Source: an uncultured Actinomycetes bacterium (GTDB taxonomy: Bacteria; Actinomycetota; Actinomycetes; Nanopelagicales; Nanopelagicaceae). From it: 64,000 nucleotides of DNA. Each line of letters begins with the position of its first letter. Position 1 is the first letter of the stretch. The stretch spans positions 1 to 64,000 of the forward strand of contig CAIJOY010000007.1 of the NCBI GenBank assembly GCA_903822425.1, in the 5' to 3' direction. The translations under genes were made by a program, and so were the position numbers. Shown piece by piece: positions 19,420 through 27,778 of the stretch. The notes below the pieces were generated by a model, which saw only the letters and a list, made by a program, of their open reading frames with translations, was not told the DNA's origin and searched no databases.

Positions 19420-20457
19420 ATGACGACATCCCTTGGCGTGATTATGCGTGCCGAAATTGAGGAAGTTCCAACAGTTTTTGAGCGAATAAAAACATCTGCC
19501 GAAAGCATGAAAGCACAAATTGCTACTTTGCCATTATCAACAATTGATTCGGTGATTTTGGTTGGCCGCGGAACTTCAGACAATGCAGCGCTGTATTTGA
19601 AATATTTGGTCGAAACCAAGATTGGGATTCCGTGTGGGCTGGCTTCACCATCTGTAGTCTCCATTTACGGGACTAAATTGCGATACAAAAATGTTCTTGT
19701 TATTGCGCTGAGCCAAAGTGGCCAATCGCCAGATTTAGTTGGATATTGCACTGCAGCTCGTGAAGGTGGCGCAACAGTTCTGGCCATGACAAATGATCCT
19801 GAAAGCCCTATGGCCAAATCTGCCCACTGTCATTTGTATTTACATGCGGGCCCTGAAAAGGCAGTTGCCGCAACCAAGAGTTATTCTGCTGAGCTATTGG
19901 TATCACGAATTTTTGTTGCAACATGGAGTGGTGAGCGCGTCGATATTGATTCCATCATTACCCAAACTAAATCCAACTTAGCCCAATCTGCTCAGATCGA
20001 AAAGATCGCACAATCCTTTGACTACAGCGGTGGTCTAACCACGATGGGACGCGGATATTCTTACGCAAATGCACACGAGGCTGCTCTTAAAATTCAAGAG
20101 ACAGTGAAGATTCCCGTTGCATCATTCTCATCTGCGGATTATTTGCATGGACCCATTTCTTCTCTACACGAACAATCGCGTGTGCTCTTTTTGGCACCAA
20201 TTGGAAGTTCTGAAAGTTCCATGGCTTCAACCGTTGAGCGTATTCGCCTCATTACCTCACATATTTATTGGATCGGTGCAGGGTTTTCTCGTGATTCCGA
20301 TGAGCAATATCTAGGTGGCGCCGTGGGACTTTCTGAGATAGACGCAGTCATCGCTGACAGTGCACTGTTGCAATTATTGGCATTATTTTTGGCAATTGCT
20401 GCGGGAAAAAATCCGGATGCCCCGATTGGCCTTGCAAAAGTTACCAAAACGATCTAA
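19420..20457 (+). CDS. SIS-domain sugar isomerase/deaminase; NagB-II-like glucosamine-6-phosphate deaminase candidate
   Basis: VGRGTSDNAALYLKYLVET...IALSQSGQSPDLVGYCTAAREGGATVLAMTNDPESPMAKSAHCHLYLHAGPEKAVAATKSY: two SIS domains, no glutaminase domain. Confidence 0.8.
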   Translation: MTTSLGVIMRAEIEEVPTVFERIKTSAESMKAQIATLPLSTIDSVILVGRGTSDNAALYLKYLVETKIGIPCGLASPSVVSIYGTKLRYKNVLVIALSQSGQSPDLVGYCTAAREGGATVLAMTNDPESPMAKSAHCHLYLHAGPEKAVAATKSYSAELLVSRIFVATWSGERVDIDSIITQTKSNLAQSAQIEKIAQSFDYSGGLTTMGRGYSYANAHEAALKIQETVKIPVASFSSADYLHGPISSLHEQSRVLFLAPIGSSESSMASTVERIRLITSHIYWIGAGFSRDSDEQYLGGAVGLSEIDAVIADSALLQLLALFLAIAAGKNPDAPIGLAKVTKTI

Positions 20458-20501: not shown

Positions 20502-21101
20502 TTGAGCCGCAAGAGTGAAGTTGAATTCTCCCTCTGGGTGCGAGAGCGCCAGAGCGCATTCTTACGCGCGGCCCGTGTGATCTGTTTTGATGCTCAAAAT
20601 GCAGAAGATGTCCTACAAGAGGCGCTAGCAGATGTTTTCCAGCGTTGGGATAAATTAAAAGATCATGAAAATCCTGAGGCTTATTTAATGCGCGTAATGG
20701 TGAGCAAACACGCCGACATGCGGCGTAAATGGTGGCGGCGCCAACAAGAAAATGAAACCTCTTGGGAGTTGGCTGAAAATATTCGCTCCATTGCCGATCA
20801 ATCCGATGATGTAGCCCAGCGCCTGCTTGTTCAATCTGCTCTCAAATCTCTGAGTGCTGCTCAGCGTGCAGTCTTAGTGTTGGTCTATGAACACGGCATG
20901 GTCTTGCGTGAAGTTGCACAAGTTTTAGAACTTCCCATTGGAACCGTGGCTTCCCACTTAGCCCGAGGCAAAGCCGCCGTTGCAGCGCATATAGATTTAG
21001 TACCAGAATTTGAAAAATCCATCAAGAAGTCTTTAGCCCCAAGCAAGGTCAGCCAGAATGATGAGATTGAATTAGCGGAAGTGGTTGAATCCAATGAGTG
21101 A
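20502..21101 (+). CDS. ECF RNA polymerase sigma factor, SigE family (TTG start)
   Basis: AEDVLQEALADVFQRWDKLKDHENPEAYLMRVMVSKHADMRRKWWRR; region 4: LSAAQRAVLVLVYEHGMVLREVAQVLELPIGTVASHLARGK. Confidence 0.9.
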   Translation: MSRKSEVEFSLWVRERQSAFLRAARVICFDAQNAEDVLQEALADVFQRWDKLKDHENPEAYLMRVMVSKHADMRRKWWRRQQENETSWELAENIRSIADQSDDVAQRLLVQSALKSLSAAQRAVLVLVYEHGMVLREVAQVLELPIGTVASHLARGKAAVAAHIDLVPEFEKSIKKSLAPSKVSQNDEIELAEVVESNE

Positions 21102-21759
21102 TGTCGAGCCATTAATCAAACGCGAACTTCAGTGGATGGCACTGGGTGTGTTAGAAAATCGTGACCTAGCTGAACTAGCTTTGTATCGAGTTCGCCGCCG
21201 CCGTATTAAACGTGCGGTGAAGTTAGTGGGCGCAGTCTTTGTTGCAGCATTCGCCGTTGTTGGTTTAGTTGCTGCAATTCATGGAACATCAGCCCTAATC
21301 GGTAACAAAAGTGGGCAAGTATCTCAAAGTTCAACTGATGCTCTCAGTTCGATGACATTGCAGTCACAAATCGAGGGCTTAACTTCTGACTATCCCATTA
21401 CATGGGAGCAAAGTGTTGGCGATACCGGGGCTATCAGCAAAGCTGGCGGACTTGGTGACACACTGGGAGGATTAACGGCGCAAGGATTGAAAGTTTCATG
21501 GGAACAATGCAATGGTGCACAATGTCCCATTACATGGACTCTCAGCGTTATCAACAACACAGGTGACATTGTTTCGGTCAACCCTGCACTGATGATCTTT
21601 GTTAATCACTCACCAGTTGTGAGCGCCTCGCGTCCCACAACTGTGACACCGGGTGGCAGTGCAGTGTTGGTCTATAACTTCCCTGAATTTCAGAGCTCCC
21701 TGAAGCCCTCGGCCGGTGCCTCCTGGCAGTGGAACTGGTTTTTGACCTCTCTCAACTGA
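21094..21759 (+). CDS. Single-pass membrane protein with extracytoplasmic domain; putative sigma-factor partner
   Basis: Start overlaps the sigma gene end; basic N-terminus, one TM (LVGAVFVAAFAVVGLVAAIHG), then an extracytoplasmic Ig-like region. Confidence 0.55.
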   Translation: MSDVEPLIKRELQWMALGVLENRDLAELALYRVRRRRIKRAVKLVGAVFVAAFAVVGLVAAIHGTSALIGNKSGQVSQSSTDALSSMTLQSQIEGLTSDYPITWEQSVGDTGAISKAGGLGDTLGGLTAQGLKVSWEQCNGAQCPITWTLSVINNTGDIVSVNPALMIFVNHSPVVSASRPTTVTPGGSAVLVYNFPEFQSSLKPSAGASWQWNWFLTSLN

Positions 21760-21884
21760 AATCAGCGGTAATTGCACGCTGAGATGAGTGTCAGCACTAT
21801 GCATAAATCCCTCTATAAAATACGGTGTACCTATTAATCGCTAGCACTGGGCTGGCAATCATAACCTTGTTTGAGGGAGTAAAA

Positions 21885-24116
21885 GTGAAAAAAACCGCAA
21901 TCGCGAGAGCAACTGCTTTAGCAGTTCTCGCAGGCCTCTTTGTTGGGCTAGCCCCCGCAAACGCTGTTGTGATCCGAGTTCCTAAAACTGCGATGCAGGC
22001 CTGTGCTGTTGCACCCGGAATTTATTGCGTTGAGTCTGTAACTGTTACAGATTCATCTGGCAAGAAGATTCCTTTGCTCTACGTACCAAGTGGTGCAGAT
22101 GTCCCACAGCAAAAGACTCCATCTGACTTTTTCGCACCTGTGGCCAGAATGGTTGGCGGCAAAGTTGTGCAAAATGACTGGTGGATGTCGCAATACCAGC
22201 GCGATCCATTGACATCAGGAAAGTTAGTTGTTCAAGATCAGTCGGCTCTCCTTGGAACTGCTAATTTTCCAGAACAAGGCGCGATCTATGATCCTGTCAC
22301 TAAGAAGTTTGATATCAATAAGCCAGAAGATACTTATGCCCAACCTGTAGATTGCTGGGATCCGGTAGCACAAAAGGGCACACAAAAGCCATTTAGTGAT
22401 TGCTTCAAGGGTGCAAACGTATTCTTGCTTGATAACACAGTCCAATACATTTATTACTACCCAACACCTGCTGCAGCTGCCTCAGAGAATAAGAACTTCA
22501 AAGCCGCAACCTTTATTGATCTGGCAGAACTCTCTGCCCTTCAGCAACGTCCTACATTCGGGGCAACTTACGATGCGGCTACAAAGACATTCTCTTCAAC
22601 CGAGTCAATAGTTATCCCTCTATGGGTTACCCAGAATGCACTCGTCAACGGTTGGGCAGTTGCCGGAACAGTTGCAACAGTTCCAACAGTTGCAGCAACA
22701 GGTGCTGGTCCATTTACCAATACACCGTGCTCTGCTGCTGAATTAGCTGGCACAACTGGCGTAGGTATTCCTGAGACTCCAAGCCATGTAAAACTCACCA
22801 TTGATGCAGTTGGCGTGAAAGTTTGGTGGGATGCTCCTACCGGACCAGCGCCAGCAAGCTACACAGTGACGGGCGTTAATACCGGCGCTGTTATAAACAA
22901 GTCCACCGATGTTGGAGCAGTCTCCTGCGTTATTTTGACATGGGATTCATTTGGCGCAACAGGTGACAAATTGCCTACAGCAGCCAACCGATACGATGGT
23001 TTTTGGTTCTGGGTTGGCGCAGTTGCGACCTCTGGAACTAACTCCGGTTTCAAAGCGTGGGTCAATGATGCCTATGCAGAGAATTACACGGATCCAACAG
23101 GTGCTTTAACGCCACCACTTTCACCAGATCCTGCAACAACAGTGGGGCAACCAGCTGAGGCAGGCCGTGTACTTCCTGGACGTTGGACAAGCCCTAACTG
23201 GCAAGGTCTTAACCTTGGATCACTGGGATATGACGGACTCTACGTTGAAGCGAAATCTGCAAACGAGTTCACAAACATCTTGATGATTGACGTATTGCCA
23301 ACACTTACTGGCGCTGACAAGAAAGTAAATCTTGCCGGTCAAGTAGGAAATAAGGCATATGCAACCAGCCTTGATCCAGATGTCGTCATCTCTGTAAAGG
23401 TTCGCACAGGTCAAATGACACCTGGTGTAACAGTTGCAATCGGCGCAGATGTTGTCATCAATGGACAAAATGAAGGTGAATACACCTCCATTACTATGAC
23501 TGGTACTGCAGTCACAGTTCCATTGGCTGCAAAAGCTGCAGACTGCACAGGTGAAGCTGGAATTTCTAAGGCGAATGTTCGCCAATTCCAAGCAATTGTC
23601 CTTCCTTCCAACGATGATATGTCCGGATTTGGTGTCGATGGCACCTCAGGTGACATGTACATTGGATCCAATGGTGTCTGCTCTTTGAGCACGCCAACAT
23701 GGGATAACGCGACAAAGAGCTTTAGCTGGCAAACATCAGCACCACACTTTGCTCCAGATGGAGTCACAGTTAACCGTGGCTTCTACAAAGCAATCATCCC
23801 AACAGGAGATGCTGCAATTCTCTGGGGAATGACAAATCCTAATGATGCAGCTACAGCGCTCTCCGTTTCTGTTTCAACAGAAGCCGGTGGAAGCACTGCA
23901 GCGATCAGCAAGATTTCTGTTAAGAACGGGAAGATCATTATCGATGTTTCCGGATTCCAGTTCTCTCGTCCAAAACTTCGCATCGGTTTGAAGCCTGGCT
24001 ATAAGGCATCTAAGCCAGTGGCCAAGGCTTCAACGGTCACATGCGTTATGGGCAAGACAACAAAGAAGGTCACTGCGGTTAGTCCAAAGTGCCCTGCTGG
24101 ATATAAGAAGAAGTAA
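21885..24116 (+). CDS. Large secreted protein, unknown function, C-terminus ...TVTCVMGKTTKKVTAVSPKCPAGYKKK
   Basis: GTG start at 21885 followed by a Sec signal (KKTAIARATALAVLAGLFVGLAPANA); shares a C-terminal region with the next gene. Confidence 0.8.
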   Translation: MKKTAIARATALAVLAGLFVGLAPANAVVIRVPKTAMQACAVAPGIYCVESVTVTDSSGKKIPLLYVPSGADVPQQKTPSDFFAPVARMVGGKVVQNDWWMSQYQRDPLTSGKLVVQDQSALLGTANFPEQGAIYDPVTKKFDINKPEDTYAQPVDCWDPVAQKGTQKPFSDCFKGANVFLLDNTVQYIYYYPTPAAAASENKNFKAATFIDLAELSALQQRPTFGATYDAATKTFSSTESIVIPLWVTQNALVNGWAVAGTVATVPTVAATGAGPFTNTPCSAAELAGTTGVGIPETPSHVKLTIDAVGVKVWWDAPTGPAPASYTVTGVNTGAVINKSTDVGAVSCVILTWDSFGATGDKLPTAANRYDGFWFWVGAVATSGTNSGFKAWVNDAYAENYTDPTGALTPPLSPDPATTVGQPAEAGRVLPGRWTSPNWQGLNLGSLGYDGLYVEAKSANEFTNILMIDVLPTLTGADKKVNLAGQVGNKAYATSLDPDVVISVKVRTGQMTPGVTVAIGADVVINGQNEGEYTSITMTGTAVTVPLAAKAADCTGEAGISKANVRQFQAIVLPSNDDMSGFGVDGTSGDMYIGSNGVCSLSTPTWDNATKSFSWQTSAPHFAPDGVTVNRGFYKAIIPTGDAAILWGMTNPNDAATALSVSVSTEAGGSTAAISKISVKNGKIIIDVSGFQFSRPKLRIGLKPGYKASKPVAKASTVTCVMGKTTKKVTAVSPKCPAGYKKK

Positions 24117-24149
24117 CTCAGCTCCACACATAACGGGGTAGAAAACAGG

Positions 24150-24195
24150 GATCGCCTCGCCACTTGAGAAATCAATGGCGAGGCGATCTTTTCTT
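24150..24195 (+). terminator. Intrinsic terminator after the first secreted-protein gene
   Basis: GATCGCCTCGCCA...TGGCGAGGCGATC 13-bp stem followed by TTTTCTTTC. Confidence 0.85.
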
Positions 24196-24214
24196 TCATC
24201 AGGAAGGCCATTAA

Positions 24215-25834
24215 ATGAAGTTGCGCAAGGCACTGCTTTTGTTGGCGCTATTTCCGATTCTTCTCACTGGTTTTTCTTCGGCATCGGCCACCGAAGTCCC
24301 ATCAAATAAGTATTTGTGGCCCCCTGTGTGGAATGGGAAAACTGATGTCAGCGCTCAACCAATCACACATTATGCCTTCGAAATTGTTGATACTTTTAAC
24401 TCGGGCAGTACTGACTGGAGCTTTATTCGCGTAGCAACTCCTGGACCCCAGCCACTGTGTTCTAGCTTAAATGATTCCTATTGTGTGCCACTTGCAGAGA
24501 AATATGGTTGGTGGATTATTCGTGTTCTCCCAGCCTGCAAGAGTGCAACGGATCTGAGTGATTGCATCGAGGGGTTGAGCATTGCATCGGCTGATGGACA
24601 GAAACGAGAACTTCGATTCCTCAAAACTTTGGAAAAATCTGGGATTACTGCTGACCCTGTGCGTGGACTAGGAGAAGGTTCTGGAAGTAGTTTGTGGGTA
24701 GAAAAAGGTTCTGACGATTCCACTGGTTACATGGTCACCGTTAGCGGTGATGCTGGCGGAAGTTTTTCTAGTAGTTCATTTCCACTCCAGAACTTTGCAG
24801 CTACCGTCGTGCCGTATAAGAAATATTTAGGTGACTTTAAAGCTCTCCATTGGAGTATCAATGACACTACTCACCAGGGACAGGGATCATCAACGAACGC
24901 TCCCTTGGATTGCATCTGGACTGATACGGGTGAGTGTGGAGTAACTTCTGAATTTCCAGAAGATTCGAGAATTAGTTTAAGAGTGCATCTTCCCGCTTCG
25001 ATGACGGGCTGGCTCATCGGGCGACTAAAAACACCCAACATTAATGTCGAAGAGATCTCTCCTTCAATGGGAGAGAAAATTGGTGTGAATCGTGTGACCG
25101 TAGATGCTCTGCCAGTTAATTTACCAATGGTAGCCGCTGCTGCTCCAGTCAATGAAGCAACCCCGTTAGTTCTTGGCCTCTGGAAAGACAATATTTGCCC
25201 TGAATGCGAGCATGGGATTTGGGGTGTTAACGTTGCAAGCAGTAATCCAAATGCCTTTGATATGTTAAAAATATTTGATAAATGGATTGGTAACAAGGCA
25301 CTCCTGTCGGTACCGACGTGGTCGGTTTCTAGCTTGATTGGATCAACTCAAGAGTTAGTAGGGTGCAACAAAGTTTCAAGAAAATTGCAAGGATTAGTGA
25401 CCACTAATGCCACCGCCTATGAAGGCAAACCTCCAACTTTTGATGGAACTTCTTTAAATTACAAACTGGCAGGAGTTCATTACGCAGCAGATGGCACCGT
25501 TTTCCAAGGTTCCTATGATTTACTGCTAAGTTCTGATGCAGCTCGTTGTTTATACAAATTTACAAACGCTCCTATTCAAGCGGTGGTTTCTGTGACTTCC
25601 TCCGATGGAGAAACCCGTGCCTCCACCTCGGTGTTGAGTGAAAAGGATGGTTGGCTCCATCTTGCTGCTTATGGTTTTACTTTCTCAACCCCCACGATCA
25701 AGATTCAATTGACTCAAAGTAAGGCAACGCCCGTAATCGCCAAGAGAACCACAATTACCTGCGTTAAAGGTAAAGTAAGCAAGTCGATTACGGCGATAAA
25801 GCCGACCTGTCCTTCTGGGTACAAGAAGAAGTAA
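24215..25834 (+). CDS. Secreted protein, unknown function, C-terminus ...TITCVKGKVSKSITAIKPTCPSGYKKK
   Basis: Signal peptide MKLRKALLLLALFPILLTGFSSASA; C-terminal region homologous to that of 21885..24116. Confidence 0.8.
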   Translation: MKLRKALLLLALFPILLTGFSSASATEVPSNKYLWPPVWNGKTDVSAQPITHYAFEIVDTFNSGSTDWSFIRVATPGPQPLCSSLNDSYCVPLAEKYGWWIIRVLPACKSATDLSDCIEGLSIASADGQKRELRFLKTLEKSGITADPVRGLGEGSGSSLWVEKGSDDSTGYMVTVSGDAGGSFSSSSFPLQNFAATVVPYKKYLGDFKALHWSINDTTHQGQGSSTNAPLDCIWTDTGECGVTSEFPEDSRISLRVHLPASMTGWLIGRLKTPNINVEEISPSMGEKIGVNRVTVDALPVNLPMVAAAAPVNEATPLVLGLWKDNICPECEHGIWGVNVASSNPNAFDMLKIFDKWIGNKALLSVPTWSVSSLIGSTQELVGCNKVSRKLQGLVTTNATAYEGKPPTFDGTSLNYKLAGVHYAADGTVFQGSYDLLLSSDAARCLYKFTNAPIQAVVSVTSSDGETRASTSVLSEKDGWLHLAAYGFTFSTPTIKIQLTQSKATPVIAKRTTITCVKGKVSKSITAIKPTCPSGYKKK

Positions 25835-25843
25835 GGAGTTGAG

Positions 25844-26824
25844 ATGATTCGAGCTTTTATTAGCCGGCGCAAATTCATTGTGAGCTTTGCTGCGATCTTT
25901 CTTGCTTACCTAGCAGTAGTTGTCTTGATTTCACAAACAAATACAGGCGCAGCAGATTCGATCGATACAGCGCTTCAAACTGCTGTCGGTGATGAACGTA
26001 TGGATGTCTTAATCCAAATCACCGAAGTTGATCCGCTCAAAGGGACGGCACTAGCGCGTATTTTGCCATGGCCAAATTCAGAAAATCTTGGGTATAAATA
26101 CAAGAGCGGTTGGCTTCCAAGAAAAGATATTACTTTCCATGTGGATTCCATTATTGGATCAAGTCCTACAGGCAACAACTTGTATCAATTTGCGAAGGGA
26201 GATCCAGTAGGCGGATTTGATGTTCAAATTGATGAGCAACCAGGAGATTCAAGCCATTCCAATGTTTCGTGGTATCCAATGGATGAATACGCATTTGAAG
26301 TTCCCGTCACTGGTACTTATGTTGATAATAAAGGCAAAGTTCAAGATATGGCAGTTTTGCCTTTGGATTACACAAAGGGAAGCGATACTTTTGATATCCA
26401 TATGACCCATGGATTCTGGAGTGATCCCAACAGAATTGTTTCCATGTCTGATGCGACTTCCGTTCACGATGCTGCAGATGAAATGAAACATGGATTTTCT
26501 TCTTCTGTCTTTACAGCGCATCGTTCAAATTCAACAAAGTTACTTGTAATTATCATTTTGCTATTAATGCTAACTGCCCTTGCTTCTGTGAGCATCATGG
26601 CTTATATGGTTGTTCATGGAATTCGACCACCTACGCTTTCAGCTCTTATTTGGAGTGCGGCACTAACTTTTTCTTTGATTTCTCTTCGTGATCTCTTACC
26701 GGGCAAACCACCCGTGGGGATCTTTATCGATAAACTTGTCTATTTCCCGGCGCTGATTACGACTCTTTCTTGCTCACTGTGGATCTTGCTTATTTGGTCA
26801 ACCCGCGAGGATTTCGAAAGCTAA
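25844..26824 (+). CDS. DUF4436-like membrane protein
   Basis: N-terminal TM, extracytoplasmic region with WYPMDEYAFEVPV, C-terminal TM helices with RDLLPGKPPVGIFIDKLVYFP. Confidence 0.6.
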   Translation: MIRAFISRRKFIVSFAAIFLAYLAVVVLISQTNTGAADSIDTALQTAVGDERMDVLIQITEVDPLKGTALARILPWPNSENLGYKYKSGWLPRKDITFHVDSIIGSSPTGNNLYQFAKGDPVGGFDVQIDEQPGDSSHSNVSWYPMDEYAFEVPVTGTYVDNKGKVQDMAVLPLDYTKGSDTFDIHMTHGFWSDPNRIVSMSDATSVHDAADEMKHGFSSSVFTAHRSNSTKLLVIIILLLMLTALASVSIMAYMVVHGIRPPTLSALIWSAALTFSLISLRDLLPGKPPVGIFIDKLVYFPALITTLSCSLWILLIWSTREDFES

Positions 26825-26845: not shown

Positions 26846-27778
26846 GTGAGCAAAACAGTTCCGGCATTTATCGATCTACAAGTCAATGGGCACGGCGGAA
26901 TCGATATTTTGTCGATCACTTCGACAGATGAACTGCGCTCTGTGGGCCGCTCTCTTTGGTCTCAAGGAGTGCAGGCCTACCTGCCTACATTGATCACTGG
27001 CCCATTGGATCGAAGCGTTGAAGTGATGAAATTAATTGAGCAGGTGCGTAGATCACCGCGCGAGGATGAAGCAGAAATTATTGGCATTCATCTAGAGGGA
27101 CCGTTTCTTTCACCAGAAAAACCAGGGACACATCCTCTGAATTTCCTACGGCTTCCAACGCGAGAGCTGATCGGTGCTTATTTGGCAGCTGGCACAGTCA
27201 CGATGGTCACGCTTGCACCAGAACTTCCTGGCGCTTTGGAAGCTATTGAATTTCTTACGCAGATGGGAGTGATTGTTTCATTGGGACATTCCAATGCAAC
27301 TGCAGCACAAGCACATGCTGGTTTTGATGCTGGCGCTCGGTGCGTGACACATATCTGGAATGCCATGAACAAAGATCGCCAAGCTGGCGTTGCAGCTGCA
27401 GCCCTTGAGCGAGAAGAGATTTACATCATGATGATCATTGATGGCCAACATCTTGATGATGATCTTGTGAAATACACGATCGATAAAGCACCGCAGCGCT
27501 TTATCGTCACTAATGATGCAATCGTTGCTGCAGGCCTTGGAGATGGAAGTTTCCCTTTTGGAACATTTGAAATAAACGTCAAAGATGGCCGGGCCACCAG
27601 AGCAGATGGAACCCTCTCGGGGGGAGTGGGATCCCTGAAGGATTCCTTGGCAAGGATGTTGGCCTTAGGGGTGGATTTTGATAGCGCCCTTGCCAGCATT
27701 ACTTCTCGTCCCGGCGAACTCATTGGCCGGCCAGAACTTGGCCAATTGAGCCTAGGTATCCGAACGACAGTGGTGTAA
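26846..27778 (+). CDS. nagA: N-acetylglucosamine-6-phosphate deacetylase, short form (GTG start)
   Basis: HLEGPFLSPEKPGTHP, LGHSNATAAQAHAGFDAGARCVTHIWNAMN, IIDGQHLDDDLV, VTNDAIVAAGLGDG; 310 aa. Confidence 0.85.
   Translation: MSKTVPAFIDLQVNGHGGIDILSITSTDELRSVGRSLWSQGVQAYLPTLITGPLDRSVEVMKLIEQVRRSPREDEAEIIGIHLEGPFLSPEKPGTHPLNFLRLPTRELIGAYLAAGTVTMVTLAPELPGALEAIEFLTQMGVIVSLGHSNATAAQAHAGFDAGARCVTHIWNAMNKDRQAGVAAAALEREEIYIMMIIDGQHLDDDLVKYTIDKAPQRFIVTNDAIVAAGLGDGSFPFGTFEINVKDGRATRADGTLSGGVGSLKDSLARMLALGVDFDSALASITSRPGELIGRPELGQLSLGIRTTVV

Follow-up and report, generated by a model that had tools for sequence, protein, structure and literature searches.

A two-cysteine tail of about 27 residues on unrelated exported proteins of the Ca. 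Planktophila family and on viral contigs

Two neighbouring genes in the window (the whole stretch of 64,000 nucleotides that was analysed) encode exported proteins, here called P1 and P2, whose C-terminal parts resemble each other. What is this common end, and what could it do for the proteins that carry it? Both open reading frames are present on the forward strand (P1, 21825-24116; P2, 24215-25834), and P1 probably starts at the GTG at 21885 rather than at 21825, because its homologues have a signal peptide at the same point. When one protein was compared with the other by BLASTP, the sole strong match covered the last 140 residues (P1 residues 624-763 against P2 residues 407-539; 39% identity, 59% positives, E=1e-21). 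This likeness, which the first-pass annotation had already claimed for the last ~140 residues of the two proteins, is far beyond chance, because a profile made from the two tails matches 15 places at E<1e-5, all in open frames, in the bacterium's own genome (1.43 Mb, 98% complete). Neither protein is named by any Pfam or NCBIfam family, and when the fold of P2 was searched, nothing matched at fold level (best TM 0.16).

The common region had been taken for one module of ~140 residues. The similarity is real, but the region consists of two units, a beta domain specific to one family and, distinct from it, a mobile tail of ~27 residues, because several carriers in the own genome have the tail without the beta domain. 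Indeed, at four loci (L018, L020, L024 and L029) the tail is found without the P1/P2 beta domain on unrelated proteins, the carriers of this kind being a trypsin-like protease, a coiled-coil protein, and two small proteins. The consensus of the unit is [TS]I[TS]C.KGK..KKVTA..PKCP.GYKKK-COOH, and wherever the open frame of an own-genome tail was read, the tail lies at its very end and is followed by the stop. A second profile, built from all 15 tails (alignment A2), returned the same 15 places and nothing else at E<=1 in this genome. Both cysteines are present in 15 of 15 of these tails, which were found by profile with no cysteine condition. One further candidate, a PknB/PASTA match (L017, E=0.135), was rejected: it is internal, does not have the CP.GY end, and disappeared with the better profile. 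Table 1 gives the features of the locus.

Table 1. Features of the P1/P2 locus, in window coordinates.
Feature	Position	Strand	Evidence or remark
ECF sigma factor (SigE-like), first cassette gene	20502..21101	+	Sigma70_r4_2 E=1e-11
224-aa protein, one apparent TM segment, outer C-terminal part	21085..21759	+	adjoins the sigma gene in relatives
Promoter-like element GCATAA-N16-CGGT, upstream of P1	21801..21826	+	expected 0.09 in window
P1, exported protein, tail carrier	21885..24116	+	~743 aa from GTG 21885
P1 C-terminal beta domain, common to P2	23694..24002 (limits approximate)	+	BLASTP
P1 tail TVTCVMGKTTKKVTAVSPKCPAGYKKK	24033..24113	+	profile matches E=9.9e-20 and 2.2e-15
13-bp perfect inverted repeat then TTTTC, between P1 and P2, terminator-like	24150..24188	+	read from sequence
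P2, exported protein, 539 aa, signal peptide, tail carrier	24215..25834	+	1-5 tandem copies in relatives
P2 C-terminal beta domain	25433..25729	+	BLASTP; strands 388-476 of AlphaFold model
P2 tail TITCVKGKVSKSITAIKPTCPSGYKKK	25751..25831	+	profile matches E=1.6e-21 and 6.5e-16; AlphaFold hairpin
DUF4436 membrane protein, conserved downstream neighbour	25844..26824	+	PF14494 E=1.3e-19; synteny

Over all the loci fetched, we counted 245 tail copies in 239 distinct carrier ORFs. Clustered by sequence, the bodies of these ORFs gave 31 groups, between which no similarity was detectable. Pfam names among them trypsin, subtilase, Kelch, RCC1, BspA-type LRR, InlB-type repeats, fn3, bacterial Ig, AIR9-type Ig, neocarzinostatin-like, periplasmic binding protein (PBP_6), DUF1501, DUF3472, an AT3 acyltransferase fused to SGNH and, below the cut-off, a GH43-like body. 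The theme common to these bodies is the outside of the cell. A signal peptide was found in 201 of 211 complete carriers versus 168 of 442 control ORFs, by a crude and lax rule and with controls that include membrane proteins and false ORFs. The ten carriers that fail the rule comprise five with an evident signal peptide on inspection, four apparently truncated frames, and the AT3/SGNH membrane protein. Carriers are exported by Sec, and the DUF1501 carrier, which starts with the twin-arginine signal FTRRQFLRG, apparently by Tat. The tail is thus found behind both kinds of signal, hence it acts after export by more than one route and does not serve as the export signal itself.

Within these proteins, the tail lies at most 12 residues from the end in 232 of 239 carriers (97%), and long Pro/Ala/Lys-rich linkers often precede it. 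The expectation that a profile of the two tails would find the C-terminal ends of signal-peptide proteins was borne out for most carriers, except for a few internal or N-terminal copies. The same copies contradict the idea of an invariant protein terminus, since 7 of the 239 carriers have the unit at the mature N-terminus or as internal tandem copies. In two proteins of ~230 aa (L063, L071), the tail directly follows the signal peptide, and a family of ~750 aa (L200, L201, L204, L207, L122) has three or four tandem copies separated by Pro/Gln-rich spacers. Since it works at either end of a protein as well as in tandem, the unit is a domain and not a terminal signal, and these copies argue for a folded binding mini-domain over a signal that a sorting machine would read at the C-terminus. 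The first-pass view that the end of P1 and P2 is not an enzyme core holds: the tail is a tag on exported proteins, and mostly a C-terminal one.

The two cysteines of this unit are 16 positions apart in 244 of 245 copies, where the search pattern allowed 14-20; this pattern, used for the large set, required two cysteines and CP, so that the invariance of these residues there is partly by construction. Acidic residues are absent from 228 of 235 cores, and the mean net charge is +7.7. Counting from the first cysteine, lysines are conserved at +2, +4, +7, and +8, and an aromatic residue at +20 (Y in 196 copies, F in 38, W in 1). In the AlphaFold model of P2 (mean pLDDT 86), the tail forms two strands and a short third one, with block means of pLDDT 93-96. 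Modelled alone (AlphaFold, with 73 tails), it gives the same hairpin, with pLDDT of at least 90 in 28 of 42 residues. The tail has no Pfam, NCBIfam, or PDB match by sequence, and a PDB fold search with the tail alone returned nothing below E=8 and no resemblance to a ligand-binding structure. Hence, the unit has the properties of a mini-domain: it is predicted to fold alone, it has a fixed length, it can be repeated, and it is fused to unrelated bodies. The two cysteines are probably joined by a disulfide. VKOR, considered as the partner for this putative bond, found no support, since the own genome lacks it.

The taxonomic range of the tail is narrow. Within the same order, 116 of 151 genomes have it, and these all belong to one family; the number of copies per genome is 0-23, and some complete genomes of this family have none. 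In a class-wide sample, 33 of 396 genomes have it, all but one of them in the same family; in a phylum-wide sample, the three positive genomes out of 399 are the own genome and two from another family. The named records in which it was found are Ca. Planktophila lacus MMS-21-148, IMCC26103, IMCC19121, and Nanopelagicaceae MAGs; some of the MAGs that matched bear odd taxon labels. The tail is almost wholly limited to this family of freshwater Actinobacteria, the Ca. Planktophila family, a group among the most abundant freshwater bacteria. In the other family of the phylum, the tail lies on contigs of 69 kb and 291 kb (L087 in genome G847, L088 in genome G868), and one tail carrier there has a neocarzinostatin-like body; these occurrences may have arisen by horizontal transfer.

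P1 and P2 themselves belong to a cassette, made of the ECF sigma factor, the TM protein, P1, P2 (one to five copies), and the DUF4436 gene, which is conserved in relatives beside the rpsM operon, either whole or in part where the loci are cut. The sigma factor scores above the cut-off of TIGR02937 and, with 3.7e-32, below that of TIGR02983. The 224-aa product of the following gene has no family match in Pfam or NCBIfam, and its position and topology suggest a putative anti-sigma factor or sensor. The element GCATAA-N16-CGGT lies upstream of P1 and of its orthologues with fixed spacing. Of 208 tail carriers, 17 have it before them at this exact spacing, versus 0-1 for scrambled motifs; at other spacings it precedes no carrier, except two at 17 nt. 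One of the 17 (element at C39:48504-48529) is a carrier of the own genome that is not linked to the cassette and whose body is unrelated; with one mismatch, the element is also found upstream of a carrier on C14. We infer that this element is probably a promoter used by the cassette sigma factor, with some unlinked carriers in its regulon. P2 may be uncoupled from P1 by the terminator-like repeat between them.

Other features of the region were noted in passing. By reading, genes of the SIS-domain sugar isomerase-like and NagA-like kinds lie on either side of the cassette (19420-20457 and 26846-27778) and oligopeptide-type ABC ATPases lie upstream of it, a link to amino sugars being possible. 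A tandem array (L205:4973-15572) has one P1-type and five P2-type tail carriers. The P2-type family is an expanded one, with ~10 well-conserved cysteines and no PDB fold match.

The tail is also carried by 31 viral contigs, part of which were checked for viral hallmark genes. On two that were read, the tail gene (L177:3405-5096, L184:3408-5096) comes after the large terminase (TerL) gene, and on L177 a CHAP-type endolysin is encoded near it. The body of this protein has host homologues in two complete genomes, at 39-40% identity over ~180 residues (the best of two segments). These homologues (L220:364-2061, L221:1510-3369) end in ...ADVLKAIVSLIASINKQIAALQK.LLKK or similar, without a tail, whereas the phage version runs on into the tail. 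By its sequence, the phage gene appears to encode a mimic of an S-layer-like protein on the surface of the host, extended by the tail. In ~11 other viral contigs the carrier is, by reading, a trypsin-like protease, an assignment confirmed by Pfam in L171, L192, L194, and L195. Exported carriers of this type were noted in L192 (3864-6658), L194, L195-L199, L171, and L173, and in L192 the tail-bearing protease lies two genes before a CHAP-type endolysin. These viral proteases could have a role in breaching the host surface.

How does this tail compare with known ways of keeping or sorting exported proteins? Like the LPXTG anchors processed by sortase, it is a short C-terminal tag common to unrelated exported proteins of Gram-positives. 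Unlike them, it has no LPXTG and no TM helix, and it is folded, repeatable, and sometimes N-terminal or internal. The tail sequences contain neither LPXTG nor a hydrophobic stretch, as the first-pass annotation had observed for P1 and P2, and its finding of no obvious known anchor stands for the tail, which is without match in Pfam, NCBIfam, and PDB, in a genome without sortase. No sortase (PF04203) is encoded in the own genome (G000) or in 30 of the 32 genomes with at least 8 tails, hence sortase is not the partner of the tail, and we rejected the reading of carriers as sortase substrates on the three counts of LPXTG, TM helix, and missing enzyme. The comparison of tail-rich genomes with others (sortase in 2 of 32 versus 23 of 119; Fisher p=0.11) is suggestive only. 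The non-covalent wall-binding repeats LysM, SLH, CWB2, choline-binding, and GW are comparable as small folded repeats that are found on many exported proteins, occur in tandem, and are used by phages. The tail differs from them in being unusually small (~27 residues), with one Cys pair and usually in single copy, and no carrier scanned had a Pfam match to LysM, SLH, CWB2, choline-binding, GW, or SH3.

The tail is an undescribed, lineage-restricted mini-domain that tags exported proteins after export. The analysis shows its modularity, the export of its carriers, its taxonomic range, the prediction that it folds independently, its use by phages, and the lack of sortase. As to its function, we propose, with belief and doubt about evenly balanced, that it retains these proteins non-covalently at the cell surface, and we infer both the surface binding and a ligand for it. 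A hairpin of ~27 residues with a short third strand, its cysteines 16 apart and probably disulfide-bonded, would act after export on the many unrelated proteins to which it is fused. Its lysine-rich, acid-free surface and the conserved Y/F would bind an anionic wall polymer or a surface coat, and the tail would hold proteins on the cell exterior, taking the role that LPXTG anchors have elsewhere, with no need of sortase. Phages appear to have taken it over so as to put proteins of their own, the surface-protein mimic and the trypsins, on the host surface. Four observations count against retention: the absence of VKOR, the tail-less complete genomes of the same family, the lack of any ligand-binding likeness in PDB, and the AT3/SGNH carrier, a multipass membrane protein that is already anchored, so that retention is not the sole conceivable use of the tail.

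The main rivals to retention are the binding of external polyanions and a processed sorting signal. According to the former, the tail would be a module for substrates or polyanions, such as algal polysaccharide, extracellular DNA, or humics, that docks proteins on external material. The strong positive charge and the conserved aromatic residue would suit it, as would the several carriers that are proteases or glycosidase-like; we nevertheless consider it unlikely, since the tail is also found on solute-binding proteins and on the multipass acyltransferase, which act at the cell, and phages add it to a protein that mimics one of the host surface. That the tail is a C-terminal sorting signal which a dedicated machine recognises and processes, as in the PEP-CTERM/exosortase or type IX systems, appears quite improbable to us. 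The tail does resemble PEP-CTERM and related CTERM tags, and the type IX secretion CTD, in being a lineage-restricted end domain on many exported proteins, and 232 of the 239 carriers end with it; its copy number, as with PEP-CTERM and the type IX CTD, varies strongly between genomes, and 0-23 copies among related ones is what a signal tied to a machine that is either present or absent would give. However, the tail has no TM segment plus basic end and no hydrophobic stretch in its core, it is not strictly terminal, and no CTERM-type curated model in the Pfam or NCBIfam libraries matches it. Tandem internal and mature N-terminal copies, a predicted folded hairpin of fixed length, the absence of sortase, and the presence of the tail after signals of both the Sec and the Tat type, as well as on a multipass protein, all speak against processing. 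The remaining reading, a stabilising end-cap against proteolysis with no binding partner, would account for a compact predicted fold at the very end of proteins, often after long Pro/Ala/Lys-rich linkers. We give it very little credence: a cap would sit against the body, from which flexible linkers part the tail here, the conservation of the aromatic residue and of the lysines on the surface exceeds what the fold needs, and the unit occurs in tandem.

We found no description of the tail in the literature searched, and the motif strings searched for occur in no paper there. The description of the secreted proteome of Ca. Planktophila (PMC11039613) deals with the same bacteria and exported proteins, and the words C-terminal, S-layer, anchor, and motif do not occur in its text.

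That literature gives no account of how these bacteria hold proteins outside the cell, and the genomes richest in the tail are mostly without sortase. A wider picture can be drawn tentatively, and we regard it as possible rather than probable: a sortase-independent surface display built on a disulfide hairpin of 27 residues and partly under ECF-sigma control, whose tag phages fuse to a host-surface-protein mimic and to proteases so that the surface of the host is remodelled or breached. One short tag on up to ~20 exported proteins per genome opens a route to predicting the surface proteome of this group. The tail could moreover serve as a tool for protein display and, since phages carry the tag too, as a handle on phage-host contact.
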